Assembly: GCA_014382585.1 (NCBI GenBank)
Contig: JACNJL010000045.1
Span: forward strand, 1-64,000
Direction of reading: 5' to 3'
From: Limisphaerales bacterium
GTDB lineage: Bacteria > Verrucomicrobiota > Verrucomicrobiia > Limisphaerales > UBA1100
DNA length: 64,000 bases
The notes beneath the pieces are model-generated. The model made no database searches and was not told where the DNA came from. It saw only the letters and a program-made list of their open reading frames with translations. Shown here in pieces: positions 5,887 to 58,256 of the stretch. Each line of letters starts with the position of its first letter. The stretch's first letter is position 1. The position numbers and the translations under genes are program-made.

Positions 5887-8826
5887 ATGTTTGTTCGACG
5901 ATTCATTTTTCAAAGTTGCCTTCTTCTTGCGTTATTGGGCATCGCTTCGGCTCAGGCGGCGGAAGAGTTTGAGCAGTTTCTTAAACCGCTCTTTGCCAAG
6001 AGTTGCGTGAAATGTCACGGCGGCGAAAAGGTGAAGGGCAAAATTAATCTCAAGCAAATCACCACCGCCCAGCAGTTCCTCGCCAAGCCGGAGCTGATCC
6101 AGGAACTCATCGAGGTCATCGACGCCGCCGACATGCCGCCCGAGGACGAGCCGCAACTCACCCAAGCGCAGCGCACAAAAATGCTGGCCACCCTGAAGGC
6201 TCAACTGCGCGCGGCGACCGTTGGCATCAAGGCGAGGCCCGTCCGCATCCGGCGCCTCAACCGTTTCCAATACAACAACGCCGTGCGCGATTTGTTCCAG
6301 CTCAACCGCGACGTGTTCGCGCTGCCGGAAAAACTGATGACGCGCGAATCGATTTACCTCAACGCGCCCAAGATGCCCGACCGCGTCAACGTCCGCTCGC
6401 TGGCACTGAACCCTGCGCCCGGCATGCGCGCGGTGCGGGCGTTCCCGAAAGATTTGCGCGCCGCCCACGGGTTCGATAATCAGGCCAACCAACTCACCCT
6501 CTCGCCGCTGCTGCTCGATGCCTTCCTGAGCTTGAGCGTGTCCGTTGTCGAGAGCCCTGATTTCAACGAGCAAACTGTCGGCATTTGGAAAACATTTTTC
6601 CAGCCGCCCGCTGAGGGCGCTGACCTTCCCGCCGAAACACGTAAACGAATCGCGGTCTTTTTAGCGCTCGCCTTCCGCGGCCCCGTCGAGTCGACCACTA
6701 TCGACCGCTACACCGCCTACGCGCTCGGCAAAATAAAGCAGGAAATCCCGTTCACCGCCGCCATGAAAAAAGTCGCCTCCGCCGCGTTGTCCTCGCCGCT
6801 TTTTCTCTATCGCTATCAACTTGCTGACGCGAAGAATTCGCAGCACGCCCTTGCCTCCAACCTCTCATTTTTCCTTTGGGTCAGCGGGCCGGATGCCGAG
6901 CTGCTGCGTCTGGCCGAGGCGGGCAAACTGTCCGAGCCCGCCGTGTTGGAGAAAACCATCGACCGCATGTTGGCCGACCCAAAAATTGAGCGCTTTCTGG
7001 ACACCTTCCCCGCGCAATGGATGCAGCTCGAAAATGTATTGGCCGCCACTCCCGACCCCAGGAAACACCGGTTGTTCGCGCTGGACAAAAACAACCCGGC
7101 CAGTCTGCAAATGTTGATGGAGCCGCTGCTATTATTTGACGCGGTATTCGTCGAGGATCGACCCATCGCGGACCTCATCACACCTAAGTTTGGTTACCAA
7201 AGTGATTTTCTGAAAACATGGTACACCACCGACTTGGAACCGCCGACGGTGGATGTCCGCGAGATTGTGGAGATGAACCGGCGCAACGCGGAACGACGGA
7301 ACGGCCTGGAGAAACTCATCAAAAACACCAAGACCGATCTGGAAGCGATGCTCAAGCCCGTGCGGGCCAAGTTGCTGGCAGAACGCAAAAAAAATACCGG
7401 CGGGAAAAAACCAGTGGACTTGAAGCCCTACGCCGCCTGGGAATTTAATGGCGACCTGAAAAGCTCAGTCAATTCACTCGAGCTCAAGGCGCACGGAAAA
7501 ATTCAATTCAAGGACGGCATGGTCGTGCTCAATCGCGCCTATCTGTTGAGCAATCATTTGCCAATTGATTTACGCGCGAAGAGCCTCGAGATTTGGTGTA
7601 AGGTGGGCAATGTGAACCAACGCGGCGGCGGCGTGATGGGCATCCAAGGTCCGGGCGATTTCTTCGATACCATTGTGCTCGGCGAACGCAAGCCGCGCCA
7701 TTGGATTTCCGGCAGCAACGGATTCAGCCGCACGCTCGACTTTCCCAACTCAACCCCGGAGAACGCGGCCAACGAATTGCTGCACCTCGTCATGGTTTAT
7801 CAGCCCGACGGCACCACTCGGATGTATCGAAACGGCAAACCCTACGGCCAACCCTTCCGACGCAGCTCGGCGACGTTTCCCAAGAATCGCAGTTCGGTTA
7901 TTTTCGGCCTGCGCCATCTGCCGCCGGGCGGAAACAAATACCTCAACGTAAGCATCGACAAAGCCCGCCTGTATAACCGCGTACTCACCGCCGCCGAGGT
8001 CGCCGCTTCCAGCACTGGCACCCATCTTTACATCTCCGAGGCTGATGCGTTGCAGGCCATGCTGCCCGCACAGAAAAAGAAACACATGGCTCTGAACGAT
8101 ACGCTCAAACAGGCGGAGGCTGAATTGAAGAACATTCCCCAGCCTCGGGACACCGGAAAAATTCAGCAGGCCGCCCGCCAGAAATTTGACAACGAAATAC
8201 GCAATAAGCTGCGCGGCAAAACCTTCGAACGTCTGCCGGTGGTTAACCCCCGCTACGGCGGAGTCATCACCAGCGCCGCCATGCTCAGCATGACCGCCGG
8301 GCCCAAGCGCACCCATCCCATCGGGCGCGGCGCCTGGATCATCGAGGTGATTTTTAATGACCCACCACCGCCGCCACCCAACGACGTGCCGCCGCTCAAC
8401 GAGGATGCGTTGGACAAAAACCTGACCATCCGCGAAAAGTTTGCGCAGCACCGAGCCAACCCCAACTGCGCCGGCTGCCATTCCCGCCTCGACCCGCTCG
8501 GCTTCGCGCTGGAGAATTTCGACATCACCGGCCGCTGGCGTGATAAGTATCCCAACGGCCGCACCGTCGATGCCACCGGAACCTTGCTGCGAAAATACAA
8601 ATTCAACGACATCGTTGATTTCAAAAAATCGCTAGTTCAAGAAGATCGACGTTTTGCCAAAGCCTTCACCGCACATTTGCTAAGATTCGCGCTTGCCCGC
8701 GAACTCACCCCTGTTGACACACTGGCGATCGATCGCATCGTCAACCAAACCGAGAACGAAGGCTTTAAACTCAAATCACTAATTAGGAAAGTGGTTCAAG
8801 CCGAGAGTTTCCTCAAATCAAATTAG
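5887..8826 (+). CDS. DUF1587/1592/1588/1585 cytochrome-type protein with inserted LamG module
   Basis: 979 residues with a Sec signal peptide (hydrophobic to about residue 24). An N-terminal planctomycete-type cytochrome motif C40-x2-C43-H44 is followed by DUF1587 (RRLNRFQYNNAVRDLF), DUF1595-like and DUF1592 (NLSFFLWVSGPDAELL) segments. A LamG-like domain (about 513-715) lies between two charged helical stretches. DUF1588 (RYGGVITSAAMLSM; second motif C861-x2-C864-H865 in CAGCHSRLDPLGFALENF) and DUF1585 (AFTAHLLRFALARELTP) complete it. Two CxxCH motifs suggest two c-type hemes, hence periplasmic or surface redox chemistry. The LamG block resembles the one in the first gene of this operon but sits in a different family, which points to module shuffling. 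Confidence 0.92.
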   Translation: MFVRRFIFQSCLLLALLGIASAQAAEEFEQFLKPLFAKSCVKCHGGEKVKGKINLKQITTAQQFLAKPELIQELIEVIDAADMPPEDEPQLTQAQRTKMLATLKAQLRAATVGIKARPVRIRRLNRFQYNNAVRDLFQLNRDVFALPEKLMTRESIYLNAPKMPDRVNVRSLALNPAPGMRAVRAFPKDLRAAHGFDNQANQLTLSPLLLDAFLSLSVSVVESPDFNEQTVGIWKTFFQPPAEGADLPAETRKRIAVFLALAFRGPVESTTIDRYTAYALGKIKQEIPFTAAMKKVASAALSSPLFLYRYQLADAKNSQHALASNLSFFLWVSGPDAELLRLAEAGKLSEPAVLEKTIDRMLADPKIERFLDTFPAQWMQLENVLAATPDPRKHRLFALDKNNPASLQMLMEPLLLFDAVFVEDRPIADLITPKFGYQSDFLKTWYTTDLEPPTVDVREIVEMNRRNAERRNGLEKLIKNTKTDLEAMLKPVRAKLLAERKKNTGGKKPVDLKPYAAWEFNGDLKSSVNSLELKAHGKIQFKDGMVVLNRAYLLSNHLPIDLRAKSLEIWCKVGNVNQRGGGVMGIQGPGDFFDTIVLGERKPRHWISGSNGFSRTLDFPNSTPENAANELLHLVMVYQPDGTTRMYRNGKPYGQPFRRSSATFPKNRSSVIFGLRHLPPGGNKYLNVSIDKARLYNRVLTAAEVAASSTGTHLYISEADALQAMLPAQKKKHMALNDTLKQAEAELKNIPQPRDTGKIQQAARQKFDNEIRNKLRGKTFERLPVVNPRYGGVITSAAMLSMTAGPKRTHPIGRGAWIIEVIFNDPPPPPPNDVPPLNEDALDKNLTIREKFAQHRANPNCAGCHSRLDPLGFALENFDITGRWRDKYPNGRTVDATGTLLRKYKFNDIVDFKKSLVQEDRRFAKAFTAHLLRFALARELTPVDTLAIDRIVNQTENEGFKLKSLIRKVVQAESFLKSN

Positions 8827-8892: not shown

Positions 8893-11442
8893 ATGCTGCG
8901 TATTTTTATTGCTCTTATTGTGTTCACGCTGGGCGTTTCGGCTCGGGCTCAATCAATCTCGGATTCAGCGACGCCCGTGCGAAACATTTCGGCACCCGAA
9001 GGCTTCAAGGTGGAATTGCTGTACTCGGTGCCTAAGCCGCAACAAGGATCTTGGGTGGCAATGTGCAATGACGACAAGGGGCGGATCATTGTGAGCGATC
9101 AGTTTGGAGGGTTGTACCGGTTCACACCGCCAGCACCGGGGAAGTCGTTGAAGCAATCGGATATCGAGCCGGTACCGGCAAAGATCCGAGCCGCGAACGG
9201 CCTGCTCTGGGCGAATGGGGCTTTGTATGTGGGGGTGAATGATTACGAACGAAAATTTCCCAGCGGGTTGTATCGGGTGACGGATTCGGATGGGGACGAC
9301 AAGCTGGACAAGGTGGTGTTGCTGCGTGAGATGTTTGCGCGGGGCGATCACGGCATCCACGCCATTTTGCCCGGACCGCAAAACTCGCTGTATCTGATCA
9401 CCGGCAACAACACCACGCCGCTCCAGACGCAGAAATCGCGCGTGCCGTTGCATTGGGGCGAGGATCATCTACTGCCGCGCATGCCCGATGGGCGCGGGCA
9501 TAACCGCGATCGGCTGGCGCCGGGAGGCATTATTTACAAGGTGTCGCTGGACGGGAAGCAGTGGGAGATTGTGTCGGCCGGCTTTCGGAACATTTATGAT
9601 GGCGGCGTAAACAAGGACGGCGAGCTCTTCACGTATGACGCGGACATGGAATACGATTTCAACACGTCATGGTACCGGCCCACGCGCATCAATCACGTGA
9701 CCAGCGGCAGCATGTGGGGGTGGCGTAATGGCACGGGCAAGCGGCCGGAATTTTATCCGGACACACTGCCGGCCACGATCAACATCGGCCCCGGCTCGCC
9801 CACGGGCACGGTGTTCGGCTACGGCGCGAAGTTTCCGGCTAAGTATCAGAACGCCTTTTACATTCTCGACTGGAGCTGGGGCAAGATTCACGCGGTTCAC
9901 CTCAAGCCAAACGGCTCCAGCTACACGGGCACGAAGGAGACCTTCATCACCGGCAGTCCGTTGCCGGTAACGGATGTGATCATTCATCCCAAAGATGGTG
10001 CGATGTATTTCACCATCGGCGGCCGCAAAGTGCAGTCGGGCGTGTATCGCGTGACCTACACGGGCAAGCAATCCACCGCGCCGGCCGTGAAGCGCACGAT
10101 GCACTATGGCCGCGTCCTCCGGCAGAAGCTTGAGAATTTTCACGGGGTGCAACACAAGGACGCCGTGAACCAGTCGTGGCCGCATCTGGGCGATGACGAT
10201 CGATTCATCCGCTGGGCGGCGATGACCGCGGTGATGCATCAACCCGTTTCGGAGTGGCAGGAACGCGCTTTGCACGAGAAGGATGCGAACAAGCGCGTGG
10301 TGGCGTTGCTCGCCTTGTCCAAGGTGATCGGAGCAGACCCGAAAAACGTTGTGGCCGGAGAAGCCAAGGATGCGCCCAAGATCAGTCCGGCACAGCGCGC
10401 GGCTATTTACAAAGCGCTCGGGCAGGTGAAGTGGAGCCAGCTCACGCACGCAAGCAAACTCACCCTCGTGCGCGCCTACCAAATCGCCCTCATCCGATTA
10501 GGCCAGCCGAACGACCGAATTGCCACCGGCATTATCAAGCACTTGGACCCGCATTTCCCCGCAGCAAATTTCGAGCAGAACTGGCTCCTCTGCGAAACGC
10601 TCGCCTATCTGCAGGCGCCCCACACGGCGGCCAAGGGCATCCAACTGCTGCAGGACGCGGCCACGCAGGAGGAACAGATCGAGTACGCGCGCTCGCTGCG
10701 GATGCTGAAAACCGGCTGGACGCTCGAGCTGCGCACGGCCTATTTCAACTGGTTCCTCAAGGCGGCCAGTTACCGCGGCGGCGCGAGCTTCAGCAAATTC
10801 ATCGAGTTCATCCGACGCGATGCCGAGGCGAGTCTGGACACTAAAAGCCGCGAGCAGCTAAAGGAATTACTGGCGAAAAAGCCCGTTCAGAAATCGCCGT
10901 TTGAGATCATGGCGCAGGCGATGATTGGTCGTAATTTCGTGAAAGAATGGAAGCTTGAAGAACTCAGTACGGCCTCCAAGACCAAGCTCAAGGGCCGTGA
11001 CTTCGAGCGCGGCCGAAAGATGTTCGCCGCGGGCGGCTGCTTTGCCTGCCACCGATTCGCCAATGCAGGCGGCATGACCGGGCCCGATCTCTCCGGCGCC
11101 GGCGGCCGTTATTCGGCGCATGATTTGCTCGAGCAAATCATTCATCCGAGCAAGGAAATCAACGAGCAGTTTGTGCCCGTGATTGTGAAAATGAAATCCG
11201 GCGACACCCTCACCGGCGTAGTCGTGAACATGAACGGCGACCGCGTGACGGTGAACACGGACATGTTTGATCCCAATCAACGCGTCAACGTGAACCGCCC
11301 GGAGGTCGAGAGCATTGAGCCCTCCAAAGTGTCCCCCATGCCTCCGGGCCTGCTCAACCTCATGCGCGAAGATGAGGTCATGGATCTCCTCGCCTACATC
11401 CTTAGCGGCGGCGACCGCGACCACACAGTCTTTAAGAAATAA
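8893..11442 (+). CDS. PVC-type heme-binding beta-propeller protein with C-terminal cytochrome c
   Basis: I place the start at ATG 8893, which gives a clean Sec signal (MLRIFIALIVFTLGVSARAQ); an in-frame TTG at 8866 would only add a non-signal stretch. The N-terminal ~390 residues look like the glucose/sorbosone-dehydrogenase-type beta-propeller common in PVC bacteria (APEGFKVELLYSVP, then repeated blade strands). A helical HEAT-like middle follows. The C-terminal cytochrome c carries C716-x2-C719-H720 in GGCFACHRFANAGG, then TGPDLSGAGGRYSAHDLLEQI and a KSGDTLTGVVV segment typical of the family. A periplasmic sugar-oxidising role is plausible but unproven. The gene stops 2 bases before the sugar-binding lipoprotein gene, tying redox and transport in one transcript. 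Confidence 0.9.
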   Translation: MLRIFIALIVFTLGVSARAQSISDSATPVRNISAPEGFKVELLYSVPKPQQGSWVAMCNDDKGRIIVSDQFGGLYRFTPPAPGKSLKQSDIEPVPAKIRAANGLLWANGALYVGVNDYERKFPSGLYRVTDSDGDDKLDKVVLLREMFARGDHGIHAILPGPQNSLYLITGNNTTPLQTQKSRVPLHWGEDHLLPRMPDGRGHNRDRLAPGGIIYKVSLDGKQWEIVSAGFRNIYDGGVNKDGELFTYDADMEYDFNTSWYRPTRINHVTSGSMWGWRNGTGKRPEFYPDTLPATINIGPGSPTGTVFGYGAKFPAKYQNAFYILDWSWGKIHAVHLKPNGSSYTGTKETFITGSPLPVTDVIIHPKDGAMYFTIGGRKVQSGVYRVTYTGKQSTAPAVKRTMHYGRVLRQKLENFHGVQHKDAVNQSWPHLGDDDRFIRWAAMTAVMHQPVSEWQERALHEKDANKRVVALLALSKVIGADPKNVVAGEAKDAPKISPAQRAAIYKALGQVKWSQLTHASKLTLVRAYQIALIRLGQPNDRIATGIIKHLDPHFPAANFEQNWLLCETLAYLQAPHTAAKGIQLLQDAATQEEQIEYARSLRMLKTGWTLELRTAYFNWFLKAASYRGGASFSKFIEFIRRDAEASLDTKSREQLKELLAKKPVQKSPFEIMAQAMIGRNFVKEWKLEELSTASKTKLKGRDFERGRKMFAAGGCFACHRFANAGGMTGPDLSGAGGRYSAHDLLEQIIHPSKEINEQFVPVIVKMKSGDTLTGVVVNMNGDRVTVNTDMFDPNQRVNVNRPEVESIEPSKVSPMPPGLLNLMREDEVMDLLAYILSGGDRDHTVFKK

Positions 11443-11444
11443 TC

Positions 11445-12449
11445 ATGAAAAAACTCCTCACTCTACTCCCGATAATCTGCCTCACCGCCTGTCTCGGCTG
11501 CGGCGGCGGTGGGGGCGATGCAACGCCCTCCGATAACAACAACAGCGGCGCCGGCACCCAAGGCAAGCCCACTGAAAGCAAGGGCGTGATCGCCTACTCG
11601 CCGCTCACGCTTTCCAACCCGTTTTTCAAGGTGATCGGCGATCACATCAAGGCTGAGGCCGAAAAGAATGGTTACACGGTCCGCATAGTGGATCCGAATA
11701 TGGACGTGAAAAAACAATCCGATCAGATGGACGATTTCATTTCCAGCGGCGTCACCGCCATCATCCTTGTGCCGTGCGACCGCCTGTCTGTCGGCCCGTC
11801 GGTGCAAGCAGCGAACAAGGCCGGTATTCCGGTGTTCACGGTGGATGCCAAGTGTGCGGCGGAGAACGCCAAGATCGAGGGCCACGTGGGCACGGATAAT
11901 TTTCAGGGCGGCGAACTAGCCGGCAAGGCGATGATCACCGCGCTCGGCGATGCCGGCGGCAAGGTGCTGGTGCTTGACTTCAAAAAGGCCAACTCTTGCG
12001 TGTTGCGCGTGGGCGGATTTAAGAAGGTGATTGATGCTCACAACAAGACGGCCACCGGTAAAATCGAGATTGTCTCTGAACTCGACGGCAACGGGGACCG
12101 CACCAAAGGCTATCAATCCACGGCCGATGCCCTGCAGGCGCATGAGGATCTCGATGCCATTTTTGCAATCAATGATCCCTCCGCCCTCGGCGCCTACACC
12201 GCTGTGAAGGAAGCGAAGCGCGATGACAAGATCAAGATCATCGGCTTCGATGGCCAGCTCGACGGCAAACAGGCGATCAAGGACGGCAAGTTGTACGCCG
12301 ACCCCATCCAGCATCCGGACAAGATGGGCCGCCAGATCGTGCAGCTGATCATGAAATATCAGGCCGGTGAGAAATTCGAGTCCGAGACGCTCATTCCCGC
12401 CACGCTCTACACCAAGACCGAGGCGGACCAAGATCCGGCGCTGAAATAA
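11445..12449 (+). CDS. Ribose-type ABC transporter substrate-binding lipoprotein
   Basis: 334 residues. A lipoprotein signal (MKKLLTLLPIICLTACLGCG, candidate lipobox cysteines at 16 and 19) and a Gly/Ser/Asn-rich linker precede a type-1 periplasmic-binding fold: GVIAYSPLTLSNPFFKVIGD, then DDFISSGVTAIILVPCD, GHVGTDNFQGGELAGKAM, LDAIFAINDPSALGAYTA and IKIIGFDGQLDGKQAIKDG. This is the RbsB-like family that delivers a pentose or related sugar to its permease. The ATPase and permease genes follow immediately, so it is the binding component of that importer. The ligand cannot be read from sequence. The 2-base spacing after the heme protein is unusual company for an RbsB gene. Confidence 0.93.
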   Translation: MKKLLTLLPIICLTACLGCGGGGGDATPSDNNNSGAGTQGKPTESKGVIAYSPLTLSNPFFKVIGDHIKAEAEKNGYTVRIVDPNMDVKKQSDQMDDFISSGVTAIILVPCDRLSVGPSVQAANKAGIPVFTVDAKCAAENAKIEGHVGTDNFQGGELAGKAMITALGDAGGKVLVLDFKKANSCVLRVGGFKKVIDAHNKTATGKIEIVSELDGNGDRTKGYQSTADALQAHEDLDAIFAINDPSALGAYTAVKEAKRDDKIKIIGFDGQLDGKQAIKDGKLYADPIQHPDKMGRQIVQLIMKYQAGEKFESETLIPATLYTKTEADQDPALK

Positions 12450-47849: not shown

Positions 47850-48245
47850 TTACGGTTGCCAAATCGGCACGGCACCGGACTTGATGAGGTCACTGTCGTG
47901 CGTTGCAAGAGGCACTCCCAAAACCCGGGCAGTGGCGGCGATGATTCGGTCGGCGGGGTCTTTGTGAAACGGAATCAGGTTATTAATTTCCACCACCACT
48001 TCCGAGGTAATCCGTTGTAAATCTACCACCGATGGGTTTGTTGCTTTTTGAAACCATTCATTCAGTGTTAGTGGCAAGGTCATACCACCGCAGGCCACTG
48101 CGGTTTGAATCTCCCAAAGAGAAATATCGCTCACCATCAATGGGGCGTTTTGGATTTCCAACTCCAATGATCGCCGATAATCAAGGTTTAATCGTGAATC
48201 CTGATTGGCCAGCCAAACCCAAATGTGGGTGTCGATCAAGATCAT
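47850..48245 (-). CDS. PIN-domain toxin (VapC family)
   Basis: 131 residues. The PIN acidic set is present: D5 (LIDTHIWVWL), E45 (DISLWEIQ), D96/D99 (HKDPADRIIAATA) and D117/D119 (ATHDSDL). VapC toxins are Mg-dependent ribonucleases, often cutting tRNA or rRNA. It overlaps the antitoxin gene by 4 bases and is convergent with cysN, ending 8 bases from its stop. It is the second toxin-antitoxin pair in the window. Confidence 0.9.
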   Translation of the reverse strand: MILIDTHIWVWLANQDSRLNLDYRRSLELEIQNAPLMVSDISLWEIQTAVACGGMTLPLTLNEWFQKATNPSVVDLQRITSEVVVEINNLIPFHKDPADRIIAATARVLGVPLATHDSDLIKSGAVPIWQP

Positions 48246-48505
48246 TGCTTGAGGGGATCAGACGTCGAACCATCCTCTTCCCAAAAGCTCATTTCAGGCG
48301 GGCCATTCCACTGGATTCCACTGCTAATGCTGCGCAGCCCTTCCAAAGCACGTCGCACTTTTTCGAGTCGATTGGGGTCCATCGGTTGAGAAACCTCAGT
48401 TTCCAAAGCCCGGGCCACGATTGTTTTCAACGGCACCCCTTCTTCAACAGCCATCATTTTAGCCATTTTCATTACTCTATCGGGAATATCCAATGTCGTT
48501 CGCAT
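48242..48505 (-). CDS. Ribbon-helix-helix antitoxin (VapB family)
   Basis: 87 residues from ATG 48505, giving the typical start MRTTLDIPDRVMKMAKMMA; an ATG at 48523 adds six residues that do not fit. The N-terminal strand plus two helices form a ribbon-helix-helix DNA-binding fold that would repress its own promoter. The C-terminal, tryptophan-containing tail (QWNGPPEMSFWEEDG) would wrap the PIN toxin, whose gene overlaps by 4 bases. Confidence 0.85.
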   Translation of the reverse strand: MRTTLDIPDRVMKMAKMMAVEEGVPLKTIVARALETEVSQPMDPNRLEKVRRALEGLRSISSGIQWNGPPEMSFWEEDGSTSDPLKQ

Positions 48506-48543
48506 AAAGGCACATTCACACATTTATGCTTTTATGTCAATGT

Positions 48544-49306: not shown

Positions 49307-50788
49307 TCAATTTTCCCAATCCTTCGCGCGCGCGAGGGCTTTGGTCCAGCCGGTGATGAGTTGGCGGCGGGCGGCGGGTTTCATTTTGGGCGCGAAGCGG
49401 CGGGCTTGTTGCCATTGTTTGGCGATGTCGTTTTTAGAGTCCCAATAACCGACTGCCAAACCGGCCAAGTACGCTGCGCCGAGCGCGGTGGTTTCGGTGA
49501 CGCGTGGGCGCACGACGGGGACGTTTAACAAATCGCTTTGGAATTGCATCAGCAAATTATTTGCGCTGGCGCCGCCGTCCACGCGCAATTCTTTTAGCCG
49601 CACACCCGCGTCGGCTTCCATTGCGGTAAGCACATCGCGGACTTGATGGGCGATGCCTTCAAGCGCGGCGCGGGCGATGTGGGCTTGGGTGGCGCCGCGG
49701 GTGAGTCCGCAGATGGTGCCGCGCGCGTGTTGATCCCAATGCGGCGCGCCGAGTCCGGCAAAGGCGGGGACGAGGTACACGCCGCCGTTGTCCTTCACGC
49801 TGGCGGCTAGTTTTTCGATGTCGGCGGCGTTCTTGAAAAAATTCAGTCCATCACGCAGCCATTGCGTTACCGCGCCGGCGATGAAGATGCTGCCTTCGAG
49901 CGCAAACTCTGTGCGCCCGTCGATGCGCCACGCCACGGTGGTGAGTAAATTATTTTTTGACGACATCGGTTTTGTGCCGGTGTGCATCAGCATAAAGCAA
50001 CCCGTGCCGTAGGTGTTTTTCACCATACCGGGCCGTGTACAACATTGACCGAAAAGGGCGGCTTGTTGATCGCCCGCGATGCCCGCGATGGGAAGGGTTT
50101 TGCCGAAGAGTTTTGTTTCTCCGACCACTTCGCTGGAGCCTCGAACTTCGGGTAACACGCTGCGGGGCACATTGAAAATTTTCAAAAGCTCTTTGTCCCA
50201 ATCGCCGGTACGAAGGTTGTAAAGCATGGTGCGCGAGGCGTTGCTCGCGTCGGTGACGTGCGTGGTGCCGCCGGTGAGTTTCCAAATGAGCCACGAATCC
50301 ATCGTGCCAAAGGCGAGCCGGCCTTGGCGGGCAAGGGCGCGCGCGCCATTTACATTCTTGAGCAGCCACGCAATTTTGGTGGCGGAAAAATAAGCATCAA
50401 TGACGAGCCCGGTTTTGCGGTGGATGGCAGGGGCGTGGCCGGCGGCTTTGAGTCGGTCACAGTTTTTGGCGGTGCGTCGGTCCTGCCAGACGATGGCGTT
50501 GGCGATGGGCTGGCCGGTTTGGCGATCCCACAGCAGGGTGGTCTCGCGTTGGTTGGTGATGCCGATGGCGGCGACATTGGCGGCAGTGAGCTTGGCTTTT
50601 TTGAGCGCCGCCTTGGCGGTGGCGAGTTGGGTTTTCCAAATGGCTTCCGCATCGTGCTCTACCCAGCCGGGTTTGGGGAAAATTTGCGGAAACTCTTTCT
50701 GCGCCATCGCTTTCACGCGCCCCGCGTGGTTGAAAATAATCGCGCGCGAACTGGTGGTGCCCTGATCGAGTGACAGGATATATTTCAT
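49307..50788 (-). CDS. glpK: Glycerol kinase
   Basis: 493 residues, the usual GlpK length. The N-terminal phosphate motif is [28 protein letters not shown] and [21 protein letters not shown] follow; FGGY-family blocks include [14 protein letters not shown] and [11 protein letters not shown] near the end. It phosphorylates glycerol to glycerol 3-phosphate in the cytoplasm, trapping glycerol that enters through the facilitator encoded just upstream. The 79-base gap between the two genes holds a CACAGA inverted repeat. No glycerol-3-phosphate dehydrogenase gene is nearby. Confidence 0.96.
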
Positions 50789-50797
50789 TTTTTATTT

Positions 50798-50856
50798 AAC
50801 ACAGATATTTACGATGTTCAGGATTTTTTATCTTAAAAATCGTGTCTATCTGTGTT
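50798..50856. repeat. CACAGA-type inverted repeat between glpF-like gene and glpK
   Basis: AACACAGATA (50798-50807) and TATCTGTGTT (50847-50856) are exact inverse copies; extending to 18 bases gives three mismatches. The segment fills the gap before glpK and ends 12 bases from the upstream gene's stop. It resembles the element at 32950-33037. Confidence 0.75.
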
Positions 50857-50867
50857 CGTAAACGGTT

Positions 50868-51638
50868 TCACATCCAGAGCATCTTGTAAACGAGCGCGCC
50901 AAGGACGCCACCGATGCACGGGCCGATGACGGGAATCCACGCGTAGCCCCAATTGGATTTGCCCTTGCCGTGGATGGGCAGCAGCGCGTGGGCGATGCGT
51001 GGGCCAAGATCGCGGGCGGGGTTGATCGCGTAGCCGGTTGGCCCGCCAAGCGAAAGGCCGATTGAAAAAACGAGCAGGCCGACAAGCAAGGGTTTAAGGC
51101 CGAAGGCCCATTCTTCTTGCAATCTTTTCGACTCATCAGTACCTCCCAAATTTTCCTGTACTGGCGTGAGGGCGTCTGGTGAAAAGATTGCGAGGACGCC
51201 GAAAACCAGGACGAAGGTTCCAATTATCTCGCAGAGCAGGTTGGCAAACGGTTTGTGAATAGCAGGTGCATTCGAGAATACGCCAAGCTTGGTGGCGGGA
51301 TCCTCGGTAACTTCCCAATGAGGCAGATAGGCCAGCCATACGGTGGTTGCGCCGAGGATGGCGCCGAGGAATTGGGCTGCGACATATTTGGGCACATCGC
51401 TCCAAGGCAATCCGCCGATGCTCGCGAGGCCAAGTGTGACGGCGGGGTTGATGTGTGCGCCACTGAAATTTACCACCGCGTAAATGGCCATAGTCACGGC
51501 AAGGCCCCAGCCGGCGGTGATGACAATCCAGCCCGAGTCGTGCCCGCAGGTTTTTTTTAGGCTGACATTAGCGCACACGCCTCCGCCCAATAGAATGAGG
51601 AGGAAGGTGCCTACCAGTTCCGCAGTAAATTCATTCAC
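50868..51638 (-). CDS. glpF: MIP-family glycerol facilitator / aquaglyceroporin
   Basis: 256 residues with six hydrophobic helices and the two pore half-helix motifs, GAHINPAVTLG and GYAINPARDLGPR. The aspartate after the second NPAR is the mark of glycerol-conducting members rather than strict aquaporins. A longish charged loop (TPVQENLGGTDESKRLQEE) precedes the fifth helix. It lets glycerol cross the inner membrane passively. Encoded just upstream of glpK on the same strand, it forms a standard uptake-and-trap pair. Confidence 0.92.
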   Translation of the reverse strand: MNEFTAELVGTFLLILLGGGVCANVSLKKTCGHDSGWIVITAGWGLAVTMAIYAVVNFSGAHINPAVTLGLASIGGLPWSDVPKYVAAQFLGAILGATTVWLAYLPHWEVTEDPATKLGVFSNAPAIHKPFANLLCEIIGTFVLVFGVLAIFSPDALTPVQENLGGTDESKRLQEEWAFGLKPLLVGLLVFSIGLSLGGPTGYAINPARDLGPRIAHALLPIHGKGKSNWGYAWIPVIGPCIGGVLGALVYKMLWM

Positions 51639-51695
51639 GCGGCGGAGTGTAGCGAGCGGGTAGCGGACTAAAAGGAAAGAATGCGGTCCGAGCGG

Positions 51696-53207
51696 TTACT
51701 TTCCCTCGCGCATGATATCCACAGAGCAGCCGACGGCTTCAAGTTCACCACCGACGCGAATGGCTTCATCGTGGTCGTAGCCGGTGAGCGCAGTAGGGCG
51801 CTCCTGTTCCAGCAGCTCAAAAATATCAAAGGTGCTCAGCATGGGCTTGATTCGGCGCATCACTTGTACGGCTTCATAGGAATCAGTGGGCACACGGCGG
51901 ATAAGCACGCGTGTGCCTTGAGGCAGTTGGGGCTCAAGGATTTCCGGCTGCGGCTCGGGTGTGGGGAGCATCGGTGGCAGTTCCTCTACTTCAAGTTTTG
52001 GTTCGGGCTCATTTTCCAAAACATCCGGGTTGATGATTTTACCCAGCGCAATTGCGTAGCGTTCGTTGATGCCCATCGGGCTGAGGTTCACATGATTGCC
52101 CACTTGCTCCACGGATGCGGGATCGAAATAAATCACGGCTAGTTTGCCGCTGTTGTGGGTGTAAATCAATTCGGATCCTGAAGAGTCGCCCAGTTCCAGC
52201 ATTTTGGGCTCTAAGACAGGAGGCTCTTCCCCTTTCGTTGGCATCTCGCTGATGTCTTTTAATATTAAAACGCTTGAGTTGAGAATTTGTTCCCGCTTTA
52301 GCACAAGGGTGCCATTGGAGTCGACGAGGTAACAATGAATCATGCTGTTTTCATCTGTGTAAGCATTGGCCTCCACTCGAACCTCTCGTTTCTGGCCGCG
52401 CCGATTGAGGTATTGTAGTAATACCACCACGGGCTCTCCCTCGTCCTCTGGCGTTTTAATGCGAAAATTCGGATTCAATATCTTCAGGTCTTCGGGGTTG
52501 ATGATCCGTTCCAGATTCAAAACGATGATGTCCCCCGTATCCGCCCGGACACATTGCACGTTGTTATTTTCGTTCCAGCATGCTTCGGGCTTCACCGCGA
52601 GCTTACGTATGTCGGTGTTTTCCCAGTACTCCAGCAGCACGAATTCCCCTGAGGGCAGAACCGGGGGCAAAGGCTCCTGTTTAATCGCTTTCAACACATG
52701 CCCGCAATTCCAACAACGCATTTCACCTTCCCATGCCCGCACGTGGCCGTTGGAACAATTCGGGCAATCTCTGCTGGCAACGTTATCCTTGTTTTGTGGG
52801 TTCTTCGATAGCCCGAGCACTTCGGGGTTTTTGATGCGCTCAAACACCAGTTCCATTTTGCCTCGGCTGTTCGCAAGATTTACTTTTACCTTGTTATGAT
52901 TTCGAAATGCCGAGGCGGGATCCACATAAGCGGTGCGATGTTCTCCCGATGAATTGACGTACTGGAGCAGGACTCGTTTTCCGAATGGCTTTGAGCGGGT
53001 GGCTTTTCTGTTTTCAATTTTATCTCCAACGTAATTGCCAGTTTTTGATCCTATCCAAACAAAAAAAACTATAGATGCAATCATTGCCAAGCCTCCGATG
53101 TCAGTACCAAAACCGATTTCATCCAGCACCGCAATAACCAGAATCCCTCCAATAAGGCCCACAAAGGAACCAACTATCATGAATAAGCAGCTACAGGCTT
53201 TCTTCAT
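51696..53207 (-). CDS. Membrane protein with four copies of an unfamiliar ~55-residue repeat, zinc ribbon and L7/L12-like C-terminus
   Basis: From ATG 53207 (sharing one base with the upstream stop, TAATG) it is 503 residues. Two N-terminal membrane helices (about 8-55) are followed by repeats starting LLQYVNSSGEHRTAYV, LLEYWENTDIRKLAV, LLQYLNRRGQKREVRV and LIYTHNSGKLAVIYF, each ending near an ERI(I/K)NPE(D/V)L-like motif. A zinc ribbon (CPNCSNGHVRAW, then CWNCG) lies between repeats 1 and 2. A Pro/Glu linker leads to a C-terminal region with a VL.RRVPTDSYEAVQVMRRIKP pattern and a GGELEAVGCSVDI ending, like the ribosomal L7/L12 C-terminal domain. I do not recognise the family. The repeats faintly resemble WYL-type small barrels. 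Function unknown. Confidence 0.8.
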   Translation of the reverse strand: MKKACSCLFMIVGSFVGLIGGILVIAVLDEIGFGTDIGGLAMIASIVFFVWIGSKTGNYVGDKIENRKATRSKPFGKRVLLQYVNSSGEHRTAYVDPASAFRNHNKVKVNLANSRGKMELVFERIKNPEVLGLSKNPQNKDNVASRDCPNCSNGHVRAWEGEMRCWNCGHVLKAIKQEPLPPVLPSGEFVLLEYWENTDIRKLAVKPEACWNENNNVQCVRADTGDIIVLNLERIINPEDLKILNPNFRIKTPEDEGEPVVVLLQYLNRRGQKREVRVEANAYTDENSMIHCYLVDSNGTLVLKREQILNSSVLILKDISEMPTKGEEPPVLEPKMLELGDSSGSELIYTHNSGKLAVIYFDPASVEQVGNHVNLSPMGINERYAIALGKIINPDVLENEPEPKLEVEELPPMLPTPEPQPEILEPQLPQGTRVLIRRVPTDSYEAVQVMRRIKPMLSTFDIFELLEQERPTALTGYDHDEAIRVGGELEAVGCSVDIMREGK

Positions 53208-54427
53208 TATTTTAACTCCACCGTGCAACCGGCGGATTCGAGGTCTTGTTTAATTTTCTCCGCCTCAGCCCGTGGGAGGTTTTCCGCCGCCACCTTGGGA
53301 AAATCGCGGAGCATGCCGTACACGTCAAACGCGCCCAAATCCGGCCGCGCGGCCTGCAGCACTTTTGTGGCTTCGTACGAGGTCATCCCAATGGCGGTGA
53401 TAACGACATTCACCGTGGCCGGTTCTGTGGTCACTGGTTCGGGTTCCGGCTCCACAGGCTCTTCCAACACCGGTGTGATTGGTTCTTCAGTGAGCGGTGG
53501 TGCTGCCGTTTGCAAATCGCGTTGCTCTAAAATGTTATCCTGTTTCAGCGCGATGCGCGTGAAGGTGGGGGCCACCCAAACATTCATGTGCGCGTTCGAC
53601 GGCTGCATGGAACAGGCGAGGGCCTCGAATTCTTTTTCCTCGCCGCGAAAGTTGCGATAGCGGATGGCCTTGTCAGCGATCATCCGTTCGCGCGTGAGCG
53701 TGATGCGCTGGAAAGTGGGCTCCACGCGCACGCTGATGGTGTTGCCTTTGGAGGTGATGGAATTCCACACGGCGTTGAACACCTTGTGTTCGCCTTCGTG
53801 ATTGCGGTAGCCGATGGCCGCGTCCCCGCTCCAGCCGAGTTGTTGCGGGGTGAAATCTTGTTTGCAATAGGGGCAGTGCTGTTTTTCGTTTTGCTCAACG
53901 AGAAACAGATACGCGCATTCAGGACACCGCTCCGCTTCCGGACCGCGATAGCGGAAGAGGGAGTGATCGTAATCGGATCCTTCTTCGAAGTCTTTCCCGG
54001 GTTCCGGGAGGGGGCCCAATTCATCCTGATTGAGAATACGATCCTGATTGAGCGCAATGCGGATCTTGTCCGGTGCCACCAAAATGTTCATGTGATTGCC
54101 CGTCACCTCAATCGTTTTGCGCCAGCCCTCAAAGGTTTTTTCCTCCCCTTTGGAATTGTGGTAGCGGATGGACATATCGGGCGGACCGGTGACTTTTTGC
54201 TCCCAGTTGCGCTTACGTTTGGGTTTGGGTTGGTTTTGGTCGTCGCAGTAATTGCCTAGTTTTATGCTGTAACGCATAATTACAAAAAAACCAATCAGGC
54301 CGATGGCTTGCACGACTATGTTGTCCGATGCGGATATGGTAGCCCCGGAAATAGTGCACGCAAGCGGGCCGCCAATCAGTAGTACTATCGCCCACGTACA
54401 ACCTCGGCTTTTTACTTGTTCTTCCAT
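53207..54427 (-). CDS. Paralogue: membrane protein with three repeats, zinc ribbon and L7/L12-like C-terminus
   Basis: 406 residues from ATG 54427; the frame continues upstream through the hairpin region but that part is not protein-like. Two membrane segments (about 10-50) precede repeats beginning IRYHNSKGEEKTFEGW, IGYRNHEGEHKVFNAV and IRYRNFRGEEKEFEAL, each ending in a strand like RIALNQDRIL or RIALKQDNIL. A zinc ribbon (CPECAYLFL, CPYCKQDF) again sits between repeats 1 and 2. The C-terminal ~70 residues (VVITAIGMTSYEATKVLQAA, then EAEKIKQDLESAGCTVELK) closely follow the ribosomal L7/L12 C-terminal consensus. Same architecture as the next gene, so tandem paralogues. Function unknown; a membrane-bound sensor or adaptor is a guess. 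Confidence 0.82.
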   Translation of the reverse strand: MEEQVKSRGCTWAIVLLIGGPLACTISGATISASDNIVVQAIGLIGFFVIMRYSIKLGNYCDDQNQPKPKRKRNWEQKVTGPPDMSIRYHNSKGEEKTFEGWRKTIEVTGNHMNILVAPDKIRIALNQDRILNQDELGPLPEPGKDFEEGSDYDHSLFRYRGPEAERCPECAYLFLVEQNEKQHCPYCKQDFTPQQLGWSGDAAIGYRNHEGEHKVFNAVWNSITSKGNTISVRVEPTFQRITLTRERMIADKAIRYRNFRGEEKEFEALACSMQPSNAHMNVWVAPTFTRIALKQDNILEQRDLQTAAPPLTEEPITPVLEEPVEPEPEPVTTEPATVNVVITAIGMTSYEATKVLQAARPDLGAFDVYGMLRDFPKVAAENLPRAEAEKIKQDLESAGCTVELK

Positions 54428-54481
54428 TTCAGTTTTTCCAGTTCTTTGATTTCGCAGAAGCGAAGGCGGCTCGGTACTCGA

Positions 54482-54529
54482 CCGTCCGCATACTGCTGGA
54501 CGGCTTGCCGTCCCGCAGTATGCGGACGG
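54482..54529. repeat. Strong 22-bp hairpin downstream of the reverse transcriptase gene
   Basis: CCGTCCGCATACTGC pairs exactly with GCAGTATGCGGACGG; inside, after one T/C mismatch, GGACGG pairs with CCGTCC around a CTTG loop. The hairpin lies 37 bases after the reverse transcriptase stop and 55 bases before the next gene's start. There is no T-run on either side, so it is not a typical intrinsic terminator. A smaller hairpin TTCGC-AGAA-GCGAA lies at 54451-54464. Confidence 0.9.
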
Positions 54530-54565
54530 GCTTCCATAACATCTGTCCACAGGTGGCCCTCTCCC

Positions 54566-56038
54566 TTACGAGGCCGTTTCCGGTAATGCCACTGCTTTCA
54601 GCTTCGGAGGGAACCGGTCCACGCGCGTTTGCCCGTAGCCCGGTGGCAGCCGCCTCCGCTTCTGCTCAATCAATTTCTCGGTGCGTAAAGTAAAGAACGA
54701 TGATTCCAAATGCCCGTGCCGCAGCAATCGCCGCCGATGGCGCAAACTGGGCAGCCTCATCGCGCGTAATTTGGCAAAGGGCATTTTTTTGAAGTGACCT
54801 TTTTTGTGACTCTTCTTTTTGCCGTAACTAAAGGCAATGGCCAGCACTTCCTCGGCCAACCAACGGTCGAGCCGCCGCAGTTGCTGCTCGTCGTCCACGT
54901 GTTTCAAATAATAATCGATGATGGCGATGGAGCGATAGCCGTGCTCGAGCACATCGTTGGCCACCTCGATGGCCTTCCGCGCGCGGCCCTTGGGTGAGCG
55001 CAGCTTGCCGAGCTTGTGCGCGTAACGCCGCCACGCGAAGCGAAACAGGTTTTGGATCTTGCGCGATTTATCACGCGAAAGTCCCACGCCCCCGTCGGCG
55101 CGAAATTCCAGCCCGAGATGCCGGAACTTCTCACACGGTTCAAAATGTTCATCCACTTGGCTGCAATCAGCCTCCGCCGTGAAATAAAAATTCCGGTGAT
55201 GCTTTGGCTTGCTGCGAAGGCGCAGGGATTCAAAGGATTCGCTGATGATCTCCTCCGCATGCGCCGTTGCGGCACGGTCGCCCGAGAATGCCAATAAATC
55301 ATCGGCATAACGATAGTAGCGCAACCCCGGTACGCTCGCGAGGCGGCGGTCCAGCGGCGTTAAATATAAGTTGGCGAAGAAACACGCGATGGCCGTGCCG
55401 AAGGCTACGCCGCATTGGTTGGTGGTCACGGTGCCGTGTGTTTTGATTCCAAACTCAATCCGTTGGCGTAGCAGTTCGAAGAGGATGTCATCCGGCTCCA
55501 CCCATTCCGCCAACATCGTCAGCAAGCGCTCGTGGTCGAGGCTGGGGAAATAATCCTGCACATCGCGTTTTACAAAATAAATTGGGCGCGGCAATTGACG
55601 CAGTCGCGCGTTAAGGCTGCGCTGGCATTGGTCCACGCCAAAGCCGCCCATCCGATACGCGTGGCAGTTCGGCTCGAATACGCCGTGAAAATAGTGCGTG
55701 AGCACACGGTACAGCAGCAGATCCACAATTCGCTCTTCCCACGGGAACAGGTTGATGGTGCGATGTTTGCCATTGAAGTTATAGTGCAACGCAATGCCCG
55801 GGCGAAACTGGAATGTCCCGTCTGTCAATTGCTGGTGCAGCTTGTGGATGTTTTTCAACGAATGCCGCGCGAAATCGTACAGCGTGCGGCCGTCGTGCGA
55901 CATCCCCAGCGCCTTGCGCCACGTGAAGAGCGGTTTGGAATAGGCACGAATCACTGCCTGATGCAGCGCGAGCTCCGAATACACCCGCGCAAAGGTAGCT
56001 TTGCGATGCGTCGACGGTAATGGGCAATGGAGATTCAT
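54566..56038 (-). CDS. Stand-alone reverse transcriptase of uncertain class
   Basis: 490 residues from ATG 56038. RT motifs are visible: RTINLFPWEERIVDLLLYRV, YFVKRDVQDYFPSLDHERLL with the first catalytic aspartate, GVAFGTAIACFFANLYLTPLD in place of the usual PQG-x-SP loop, YYRYADDLLAF (YADD at 244-247), and FRHLGLEFRADGG. The last ~110 residues are very basic (GKKKSHKKGHFKKM, RHRRRLLRHG). I see no maturase-type X domain or HNH endonuclease of a group II intron, and no retron-style RNA upstream. It may belong to the unclassified or defence-related bacterial RTs. Neighbours give no partner beyond the hairpin just downstream. Confidence 0.88.
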   Translation of the reverse strand: MNLHCPLPSTHRKATFARVYSELALHQAVIRAYSKPLFTWRKALGMSHDGRTLYDFARHSLKNIHKLHQQLTDGTFQFRPGIALHYNFNGKHRTINLFPWEERIVDLLLYRVLTHYFHGVFEPNCHAYRMGGFGVDQCQRSLNARLRQLPRPIYFVKRDVQDYFPSLDHERLLTMLAEWVEPDDILFELLRQRIEFGIKTHGTVTTNQCGVAFGTAIACFFANLYLTPLDRRLASVPGLRYYRYADDLLAFSGDRAATAHAEEIISESFESLRLRSKPKHHRNFYFTAEADCSQVDEHFEPCEKFRHLGLEFRADGGVGLSRDKSRKIQNLFRFAWRRYAHKLGKLRSPKGRARKAIEVANDVLEHGYRSIAIIDYYLKHVDDEQQLRRLDRWLAEEVLAIAFSYGKKKSHKKGHFKKMPFAKLRAMRLPSLRHRRRLLRHGHLESSFFTLRTEKLIEQKRRRLPPGYGQTRVDRFPPKLKAVALPETAS

Positions 56039-56123
56039 CCCGATAAACAATCTTCGGGCGCGCAGGGTTTGTGGAGGATACCCAAATGCTATGAAATAGA
56101 AAACACAAATTATCCACGCGAAA

Positions 56124-56152
56124 TTGACGGCGCGTCTCCTGGGCGTTATGCT
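56124..56152 (+). promoter_or_regulatory. Sigma70-type promoter of nadA giving a leaderless mRNA
   Basis: TTGACG (56124-56129) and TATGCT (56147-56152) are spaced by 17 bases. Only seven bases separate the -10 hexamer from ATG 56160, so transcription should begin at or next to the start codon. This supports the choice of 56160 over the earlier ATG at 56148, which would overlap the -10 element. Confidence 0.6.
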
Positions 56153-56159
56153 TGGCGCG

Positions 56160-57101
56160 ATGTCAGTCGCCACACCCACGGACGCGTTGTCGCAGGAAAT
56201 CGCTGAGCTAAAGCAACAGCTCAACGCCATCATCCTCGTGCACAATTATCAAGTGCCGGAAATTCAGGATATCGGCGATTACGTGGGCGATTCGCTGGGG
56301 CTCGCGCAACAGGCGGCCGATACGGATGCGGACGTTATCGTGTTCTGCGGCGTGCATTTTATGGCTGAGACGGCCAAGATACTTTCGCCCGAAAAAACCG
56401 TGGTGCTGCCCGATCGCGATGCGGGCTGTTCGTTGGAAGAAAGTTGTCCGCCCAACAAACTGCGCGAGCTGCAGGCCACAAATCCAAATTTTTTCACCGT
56501 CACTTATGTAAACTGCAGCGCCGAAGTGAAGGCGCTCTCCGATGTCATTTGCACCAGCGGCAACGCCCAAAAAATCGTCGAGCAATGTCCGCCCGAAAAA
56601 GATTTGCTGTTTGTGCCCGACGAAAATCTCGGCCAATGGGTGATGGAACAAACCGGTCGTCCGATGACCTTGTGGCAGGGCAACTGTTACGTGCACGTCG
56701 AGTGGACGCACGCCGCCATCACCAAAATCCGAAACGAATATCCAGACGCCCCCGTTGTCGCCCATCCTGAGTGCACCAAAGCCGTCCGCATCCTTGCCGA
56801 CGAAGTGTGTTCCACCGAAAAAATGGTGCACTACTGTCGCGCCGCCGAGAGCGACGCGGTCATCATCGCCACCGAAGCCGGGATGCTGCATCGTTTGCAA
56901 AAGGAATGCCCCGACAAAAAATTCATCCCCGCTCCCACCGAAAAATGCGCCTGCAACGAGTGCCACTTCATGAAAATGAACACCCTCGAAAAAGTAAGAA
57001 ACTGCATGCGCGACCTCACCCCGCAAGTCGAGCTTTCCCCCGAAATCATCCAACGCGCCAAGCTCCCCATCGAGCGGATGCTGGAGTGGACGGCGCGGTA
57101 A
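56160..57101 (+). CDS. nadA: Quinolinate synthase
   Basis: 313 residues. NadA blocks: LNAIILVHNYQVPEIQDIGD, GDSLGLAQQAADTDADVIVFCGVHFMAETAKIL, VLPDRDAGCSLEESC, YVNCSAEVKALSDVICTSGNA and the C-terminal CACNECHFMKMNTLEKV. Cysteines for the oxygen-sensitive 4Fe-4S cluster are present. It condenses iminoaspartate with dihydroxyacetone phosphate to quinolinate in NAD synthesis. nadB and nadC are not in the window. The gene is divergent from the reverse transcriptase gene. Confidence 0.95.
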   Translation: MSVATPTDALSQEIAELKQQLNAIILVHNYQVPEIQDIGDYVGDSLGLAQQAADTDADVIVFCGVHFMAETAKILSPEKTVVLPDRDAGCSLEESCPPNKLRELQATNPNFFTVTYVNCSAEVKALSDVICTSGNAQKIVEQCPPEKDLLFVPDENLGQWVMEQTGRPMTLWQGNCYVHVEWTHAAITKIRNEYPDAPVVAHPECTKAVRILADEVCSTEKMVHYCRAAESDAVIIATEAGMLHRLQKECPDKKFIPAPTEKCACNECHFMKMNTLEKVRNCMRDLTPQVELSPEIIQRAKLPIERMLEWTAR

Positions 57102-57170
57102 CGTGCAACCGGTAGGATGCCGGAAGCACAATTCGCCTTGCCAGCATTTTGGCGCGTGCCACACTTGGGC

Positions 57171-58256
57171 ATGAACCGTTATTTGATTTTCTTCGCGGCA
57201 CTGTACCTTTCAACAACCCTCTTCGCCGCCGAGCGGTTGGACCGGTTAAATCTTTTGCAATTCCGTGATGCCAAGGGTGTAGTGCAGCCGGTGAAGACTC
57301 CGGCGGATTGGGAGCTGCGGCGGACGGAAATTTTGAAGGGGATGGTGGCAGTGATGGGGCCGGTGCCGGGGAAAGCGCGGCGGGTTCGATTGGAGGTGAA
57401 GGTGGAGGAGGAAGTGGATGCGGGGAAATATTTTCGGCAGCTCATCACGTTTCAATCCGAGCCGGGCTCGCGCACGCCGGCTTATCTTTGCATTCCGAAA
57501 TCTGTTTTCATCATCAAGGGCGGCAAGGCACCGGCGGTGCTGTGTTTGCATCCGACGGATAACAAAGTGGGCCACAAAGTAGTGGTCGGACTCGGCGGGC
57601 GCGAGGGGCGGGCGTATGCGGCGGAATTGGCGGAGCGCGGTTACGTGACCCTTTCACCGGCGTACACGCATCTCGCCAACTACTGGCCCAACCTCGGCAA
57701 GCTCGGCTACGTGAGCGGCACGATGAAGGCGATTTACGACAACACGCGCGCGCTGGATTTGCTGGAAACGCTGCCGTATGTTGACGCCAAGCGCGGCTTC
57801 GGCGCGATCGGCCATTCGCTTGGCGGGCACAATGCTATTTATACAGCGGTGTTAGATAAACGAATCAGCGTGCTGGCGAGCAGTTGCGGTTTTGATGCGT
57901 ATCCGGATTACTACGATGGCGCGGAGCGCAACTGGTTTTTCGGCCGTGGCTGGTGCCAAATCCGTTACATGCCGCGCTTGTCGGATTACCGCGGGCGCAC
58001 AAAGGAAATCCCCTTTGACTTTCCCGAACTGCTCGGCGCACTGGCCCCTCGCCCACTCTTCGTGCACGCGCCTTTGCGCGATTCAAATTTCCGCTGGAAA
58101 AGTGTGGACGTTTGCGCCAAGGCAGCCCTGCCCGTTTACAAATTGTTGGGCAACGAAAACGGACTGACCATCAAGCACCCAGATTACAATCACAACTTCC
58201 CCAAGGACATGCGCGAATCGGCTTACAAATTGATTGATTCAGTTTTGAAGAAATGA
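57171..58256 (+). CDS. Exported alpha/beta hydrolase (acetyl-xylan-esterase/dienelactone-hydrolase-like)
   Basis: 361 residues from ATG 57171, with signal peptide MNRYLIFFAALYLSTTLFAAE. The hydrolase core has KAPAVLCLHPTDNKVGHK, a nucleophile elbow AIGHSLGGHNAI (Ser216), a loop PDYYDGAERNWFFGRGWCQ and a late APRPLFVHAPLRDSNF. An acidic/histidine pair near HPDYNHNFP would complete the triad. Such exported esterases in PVC bacteria often deacetylate or de-esterify polysaccharides; the substrate is not readable. It stands alone between nadA and a repeat-bearing gap. Confidence 0.85.
   Translation: MNRYLIFFAALYLSTTLFAAERLDRLNLLQFRDAKGVVQPVKTPADWELRRTEILKGMVAVMGPVPGKARRVRLEVKVEEEVDAGKYFRQLITFQSEPGSRTPAYLCIPKSVFIIKGGKAPAVLCLHPTDNKVGHKVVVGLGGREGRAYAAELAERGYVTLSPAYTHLANYWPNLGKLGYVSGTMKAIYDNTRALDLLETLPYVDAKRGFGAIGHSLGGHNAIYTAVLDKRISVLASSCGFDAYPDYYDGAERNWFFGRGWCQIRYMPRLSDYRGRTKEIPFDFPELLGALAPRPLFVHAPLRDSNFRWKSVDVCAKAALPVYKLLGNENGLTIKHPDYNHNFPKDMRESAYKLIDSVLKK

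Follow-up and report, generated by a model that had tools for sequence, protein, structure and literature searches.

The window, i.e., the whole 64,000-nt stretch of DNA analyzed here, harbors on its minus strand a reverse transcriptase (RT) gene, a structured RNA element and two tandem genes encoding proteins P0001 and P0002 (the array), followed on the same strand by glpF (51638) at a distance of 58 bases from the array end (Table 1). Both array reading frames are open and share a single base at 53207, where P0001 ends and P0002 starts. Two hydrophobic N-terminal helices, seen in the structural models as well as in the hydropathy profiles, and a CxxC...CxxC ribbon located after repeat 1 had been described for both proteins in the earlier note, and both elements were indeed found in P0001 and P0002.

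Table 1. Coordinates of the array genes, their domains and the upstream RT and RNA features within the window.
Feature	Position	Strand	Basis or content
P0001, 406 aa	53207..54427	-	2 TM helices, 3 barrel repeats, zinc ribbon, L12-type CTD
P0001 two N-terminal membrane helices, res. 9-64	54236..54403	-	model helices 9-33 and 37-64; hydropathy
P0001 repeat 1, res. 87-137	54017..54169	-	iterated repeat HMM
P0001 zinc ribbon CPEC...CPYC, res. 168-188	53864..53926	-	sequence
P0001 repeat 2, res. 205-254	53666..53815	-	iterated repeat HMM
P0001 repeat 3, res. 255-305	53513..53665	-	iterated repeat HMM
P0001 L12-type CTD	53210..53410	-	PF00542 over cut-off; 1ctf TM 0.90, Z 12.7
P0002, 503 aa	51696..53207	-	2 TM helices, 4 barrel repeats, zinc ribbon, L12-type CTD
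P0002 two N-terminal membrane helices, res. 2-72	52992..53204	-	model and hydropathy
P0002 repeat 1, res. 81-131	52815..52967	-	iterated repeat HMM
P0002 zinc ribbon CPNC...CWNC, res. 148-168	52704..52766	-	sequence
P0002 repeat 2, res. 192-241	52485..52634	-	iterated repeat HMM
P0002 repeat 3, res. 264-314	52266..52418	-	iterated repeat HMM
P0002 repeat 4, res. 346-397	52017..52169	-	iterated repeat HMM
P0002 L12-type CTD	51699..51923	-	1ctf VIA Z 11.6, rmsd 1.3 over 67 residues; Pfam: not detected
Reverse transcriptase, 490 aa, YADD motif	54566..56038	-	RVT_1; single copy in genome, syntenic; homologue alignment
Structured RNA element, 228 nt	54446..54673	-	fold z -9.35; covariation in relatives; frozen third codon positions
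5' arm of closing helix	54648..54673	-	predicted structure
3' arm of closing helix	54446..54471	-	predicted structure
Hypervariable hairpin, compensated stem	54482..54529	-	comparison of relatives; sole copy in genome

Mean pLDDT values of the full-length models were low (53.8 for P0001 and 55.5 for P0002), with only the L12 domain being well supported. The soluble part of both proteins is predicted to be cytosolic, as suggested by a Lys/Arg-rich stretch that follows helix 2. Searches with the whole proteins against Pfam, NCBIfam, PHROGs and PADLOC returned no family beyond L12 and weak zinc ribbons, in line with the notion that this combination of elements corresponds to no described family. 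None of the PADLOC defence-family models matched convincingly, and a SLATT model was absent among the Pfam, NCBIfam and PADLOC matches. A sequence search of the PDB essentially returned bL12 for P0001 and nothing useful for P0002; relatives of P0001 were not found in viral contigs, and a phage search with this protein yielded two weak L12-domain matches, but no more. By the tests made, P0001 and P0002 are not members of the bL12, WYL or SLATT families, and they represent a real and unusual architecture limited to one lineage among the sampled genomes.

The iterated repeat HMM identified four repeats in P0002 and three in P0001, the copy numbers originally proposed, and these seven were the only ones genome-wide; each scored E < 1e-14 with an HMM whose training set includes these same copies. 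The proposed start motif [IL]xYxNxxGEx[KR] held in its strict form for four of the seven (repeats 1 to 3 of P0001 and repeat 1 of P0002), the other three conforming loosely. The repeats had been considered unfamiliar, and they remained so in the profile search, where no Pfam family was matched and WYL was not retrieved at E up to 10 with either the proteins or the repeat consensus. Structure prediction, suggested as a check for SH3/WYL-like barrels, returned low-confidence models of the SH3/Sm/WYL-like barrel type, with structural matches to DUF903-type 2ra2 (Z 7.9), the WYL domains of PafBC (9fnd, Z 7.2) and CapW (Z 6.5), SHD1 (2hbp, Z 6.1) and BrxR (Z 5.9). In a Foldseek search with P0002, tandem Tudor chains ranked first (SETDB1 tandem Tudor). 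Going by these models, the repeats would share their fold class with the SH3/Sm-like barrels of WYL, SHD1, DUF903 and Tudor proteins. We take this likeness to define a fold class rather than a family. Z scores below 8 may indicate no more than a common small barrel. From WYL regulators, the array proteins further differ in that the usual partner domains are absent and no sequence match to the Pfam family was obtained.

The C-terminus had been likened to that of ribosomal L7/L12, and here the evidence is firmest. PF00542 matched P0001 with 31.0 bits (gathering cut-off 25.9) and was absent from the Pfam match list of P0002; the CTDs of both proteins were nevertheless modeled as L12 CTDs, and a departure from this fold was seen in neither. 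The P0001 CTD superimposed on the E. coli L7/L12 CTD (1ctf) with a TM score of 0.90, an rmsd of 1.3 and a VIA Z score of 12.7; for the P0002 CTD, Z was 11.6. ClpS was the next-best fold, with Z up to 10.9. The earlier idea that the domain could bind translation-factor-like partners was weakened. Among the factor contacts of bL12, which we take to include K65, I69, R73 and K84, all four of these positions are replaced in the array CTDs (K70 is kept in P0001), whereas the genome's own bL12, encoded elsewhere, keeps most of its factor-contact positions. Because the bL12 contact positions are mostly replaced, docking of EF-G or EF-Tu onto the array CTDs appears unlikely, judging from the sequences. 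The findings are compatible with a putative protein-adaptor role, the other function that had been considered. Thus, the array proteins resemble bL12 in the CTD fold and, in the case of P0001, in a sequence match above the Pfam cut-off, but they are membrane-anchored, have largely lost the factor-contact residues and lack the L10-binding/dimerisation domain: no match to this N-terminal L12 domain was found, the N-terminus consisting of two membrane helices and barrels instead. Weak P0001 matches from further genomes were discounted as ribosomal bL12, those in G008 and G017 being located in ribosomal protein/rpoBC clusters.

A precedent for the use of this fold outside the ribosome is given by the L12/ClpS domains reported as insertions within the vWA components of certain conflict systems (PMC7159879). 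These have the fold in common with the array CTDs and illustrate its use as a module of putative immunity proteins; they differ in being part of vWA proteins in MoxR-vWA systems of Bacteroidetes, whereas the domain described here resides on membrane proteins encoded beside an RT. An extra C-terminal L12-type domain was also noted in ABC-transporter ATPases of genus g5 (L076 6175-7170, with PF00542 at 33 bits and over cut-off; L079 444-1436 and L080 1174-2223, both found by similarity to P0001). Likewise, ribbons resembling those of the array proteins (WxxxxRCWxCG) occur in the absence of barrels at L081 5399-6055 (G000:C55) and L077 3785-5113.

Relatives of the array are confined, among the sampled genomes, to two genera (g1 and g5) of one Verrucomicrobiota family; the repeat profile gave no match in 387 other sampled Verrucomicrobiota genomes. 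The largest number of copies on one contig was four (G003, L065), the outermost being cut by the contig end, and G010 carries three. Members contain zero to four barrels, with membrane helices, zinc ribbon and an ankyrin tail each being optional. Modules have evidently been exchanged between members: the positional counterpart of P0002 in G004 is ~90% identical over repeats 3 and 4 and the CTD, but shares only ~30% identity over the N-terminus and repeat 1, and in a 320-aa member from G003, repeat 1 and the ribbon are P0002-like (75%) and the CTD is P0001-like (86%). The dN/dS ratios of 0.15-0.19 for P0001 and 0.20-0.28 for P0002 indicate purifying selection, compared with 0.08 for the neighboring glpK and 0.02 for nadA. 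Paralogue number, variable barrels, optional ankyrins, chimeric modules and dN/dS taken together suggest that the arrays resemble conflict genes. In G005 (L067), both the counterpart of P0002 and the RT fall into two frames (7235-8579 and 10635-12102), owing either to decay or to an assembly error.

The active site of the RT is intact, with the YADD motif (YSDD in L070) and the motif A aspartate conserved in the seven RTs aligned. Among the UG models, UG26 scored best (114 bits), ahead of the generic RT model (109) and UG17 (86), and UG26 was likewise the top-scoring model for the RTs of L069, L128 and L129; these scores give the RT no clear place among the known classes. A group II intron was rejected, as TIGR04416 scored 95.9 against a cut-off of 300 and Rfam intron families were absent at E up to 1 in the interval 50000-57500. 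The same applies to a retron: the best retron-type RT model, St85, reached 41 bits against a cut-off of 235, and the Rfam search returned no retron RNA. Distant homologues of the RT, with 42 and 41% identity, were found in other families (G304 and G282). Both retain the conserved C-terminal region and terminate close to the point at which the RNA starts in the window. Each is directly followed by a structured RNA that combines a long closing helix with two hairpins in tandem (z -9.03 and -8.38); array proteins were found with neither. Two further homologues, on viral contigs (L152 and L153; 33-34% identity), have no such hairpins downstream.

The RNA element in the window lies between the RT gene and P0001, covers the last ~111 nt of the former, and consists of a long closing helix, inner helices and one strong hairpin. 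Including relatives, the length of the RNA ranges from 228 to 343 nt, and the RNAs of g5 and G005 contain two such hairpins each. Comparison of four g1 sequences revealed that the scaffold differs at no more than 6 of 180 columns and the hairpin at up to 27 of 50, with the hairpin fold being kept in each. For the RNAs with two hairpins, both partners are exchanged in 20 of the 91 base pairs, relative to a shuffle mean of 7.2 and with none of 500 shuffles reaching 20, and the covariation signal was abolished by sliding the alignment. In addition, none of 37 third codon positions differ in the part overlapping the RT gene, versus 19 of 59 just upstream. Shuffles, slides and third codon positions together rule out a chance origin of the structure. 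The RNA is a previously unlisted structured element. The pair of RT and RNA with its hypervariable yet compensated hairpins, which lies outside the coordinates covered by the earlier note, is more striking than the array proteins themselves. It raises the question of what replaces both stem arms at once, and whether the RT is the agent. A dispersed REP-like repeat was rejected, as no second instance of the palindrome was found in the genome when up to two mismatches were allowed, and the hairpin arm was absent from viral contigs. That each hairpin arm is itself palindromic applies to only some hairpins (p 0.0005 to 0.66) and is therefore not claimed.

Copies of the RNA standing free of RT and array were detected in two other genomes, L147 (G013:C532), where the copy adjoins a sulfatase gene, and L148 (G017:C79), along with a weaker match at G019:C30:14424-14506. 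The RNA might thus exist independently of the RT gene, and, since free-standing copies exist, it might be mobile or regulatory in nature. We have considered that it acts in cis as a regulatory leader for the array genes, or is an RT-mobilised element, rather than being the template for a signalling product. The free-standing copies and the position directly before the first array gene would fit such a role, which we nonetheless regard as distinctly unlikely: structured RNA also accompanies the RTs of G304 and G282, which are not followed by an array, and only one copy was found in the window's genome.

The order nadA, RT, RNA, array, glpF, glpK and prx is kept in g1 and g5; several genomes show it on a single contig, and in others it is split at contig ends. 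All array-bearing genomes also have the RT, except for G006, whose contig ends before the RT position; in G014, where the array seems to lie apart from the RT, the contig was probably misassembled as a chimera at the duplicated RNA. On the basis of this synteny, which is what would link RT and RNA to the array proteins, we tentatively propose, short of calling it probable, that P0001 and P0002 serve in the inner membrane as sensor or effector partners of the upstream RT and RNA. The proposal draws on the conserved order from nadA to prx, the presence of the RT with the arrays, the covariation of the RNA, the distant RT-RNA pairs, the conflict-like character of the arrays and the published parallels discussed below. 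Against it stand the RT-RNA pairs of G304 and G282, from which it follows that the pair does not need array proteins, the lack of a convincing defence-family match for the membrane proteins, the free-standing RNA copies, and the neighbors, which are metabolic genes rather than a defence island. Since synteny is conserved for the whole neighborhood, metabolic genes included, proximity says little about function.

According to the main competing explanation, the array encodes membrane scaffolds or regulators unrelated to RT and RNA, perhaps acting on the neighboring glycerol genes. In its more general form, the array proteins would be lineage-specific membrane scaffolds or adaptors unlinked to the RT, their adjacency resulting from vertical inheritance of a neighborhood in which nadA, glpF, glpK and prx have kept their order as well. 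The restriction of the array to two genera and the existence of RT-RNA pairs lacking it in G304 and G282 lend this some weight; however, the genomes sampled from genera g2-g4 of this family lack RT, RNA and array alike, and the shuffled modules and the number of paralogues suggest that the role is variable and of the conflict type. We judge this explanation rather unlikely overall. The more specific form, in which the array proteins regulate or scaffold glycerol uptake by the downstream GlpF aquaporin and GlpK, seems very improbable to us. The short distance to glpF and the array-glpF-glpK order kept in both genera speak for it, but a variable paralogue number and shuffled modules would be odd for a dedicated transporter regulator, and we know of no need for such a partner of glpF and glpK elsewhere.

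Returning to a partnership with RT and RNA, retrons combine an RT and an RNA closed by an inverted repeat and bearing variable hairpins with partner proteins. The locus described here has an RT, such an RNA and putative partner proteins but departs from retrons in that its RNA lies downstream of, and overlaps, the RT gene, and in the St85 score far below cut-off. Closest in plan, although this is mostly inference by analogy, is DRT10, which comprises a UG17 RT, a SLATT gene and an ncRNA located upstream of the latter; phage defence requires the three of them (PMC12632851). SLATT is predicted to form pores, other DRTs co-occur with membrane proteins, and the authors proposed that cDNA controls the membrane effector (PMC12632851). 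The DRT10 ncRNA, 137 nt in length, has a central stem with side hairpins and takes variable template sequences (PMC12632851). Common to both loci are an RT, a structured ncRNA in the intergenic region preceding a membrane-protein gene, and a third component consisting of membrane proteins. Yet, RT, RNA and membrane genes follow each other in this order here, the RNA extending into the 3' end of the RT gene, a SLATT match is missing, the best UG model is UG26 and not UG17, and the RNA is 228-343 nt instead of 137 nt long and contains hypervariable compensated hairpins. The arrangement thus resembles, but is not, one of the known RNA-RT defence systems. If RT, RNA and membrane proteins act jointly, they would add to the known RT-ncRNA modules one that has membrane partners and belongs to none of the DRT and retron types described so far, and the ribosomal-stalk/ClpS fold would have been reused on membrane proteins.

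In such a module, the RT would bind the RNA and copy it into DNA or generate an RNA-DNA product. P0001 and P0002 might then bind this product or the RT complex through their multivalent barrels and zinc ribbons, the L12-type domain would recruit a further protein, and the membrane hairpins could subsequently act, e.g., by membrane permeabilisation. We infer from the parallels above that the RT uses this RNA, that its product would reach the membrane proteins, whose topology is likewise predicted, and that the purpose would be defence against phages or other invaders. An even more specific version, which we consider doubtful, is a new RT-RNA system in which the frozen RNA scaffold displays fast-replaced self-complementary hairpins to be copied into DNA by the RT, the multivalent barrels reading the product and the L12/ClpS-type adaptor triggering a membrane response.

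Some minor observations concern the surroundings of the RT genes. In G282 (L129 5292-7034), a 580-aa protein composed of ADKCDKWNEF-type repeats, without a matching Pfam family, is encoded directly before the RT, and in G304 (L128 4967-6067) a WYL-type regulator, assigned by eye, is divergent from the RT gene. In the window itself, the minus-strand genes at 47850-48245 and 48242-48523 look, again by eye, like a PIN-like toxin/antitoxin-like pair.
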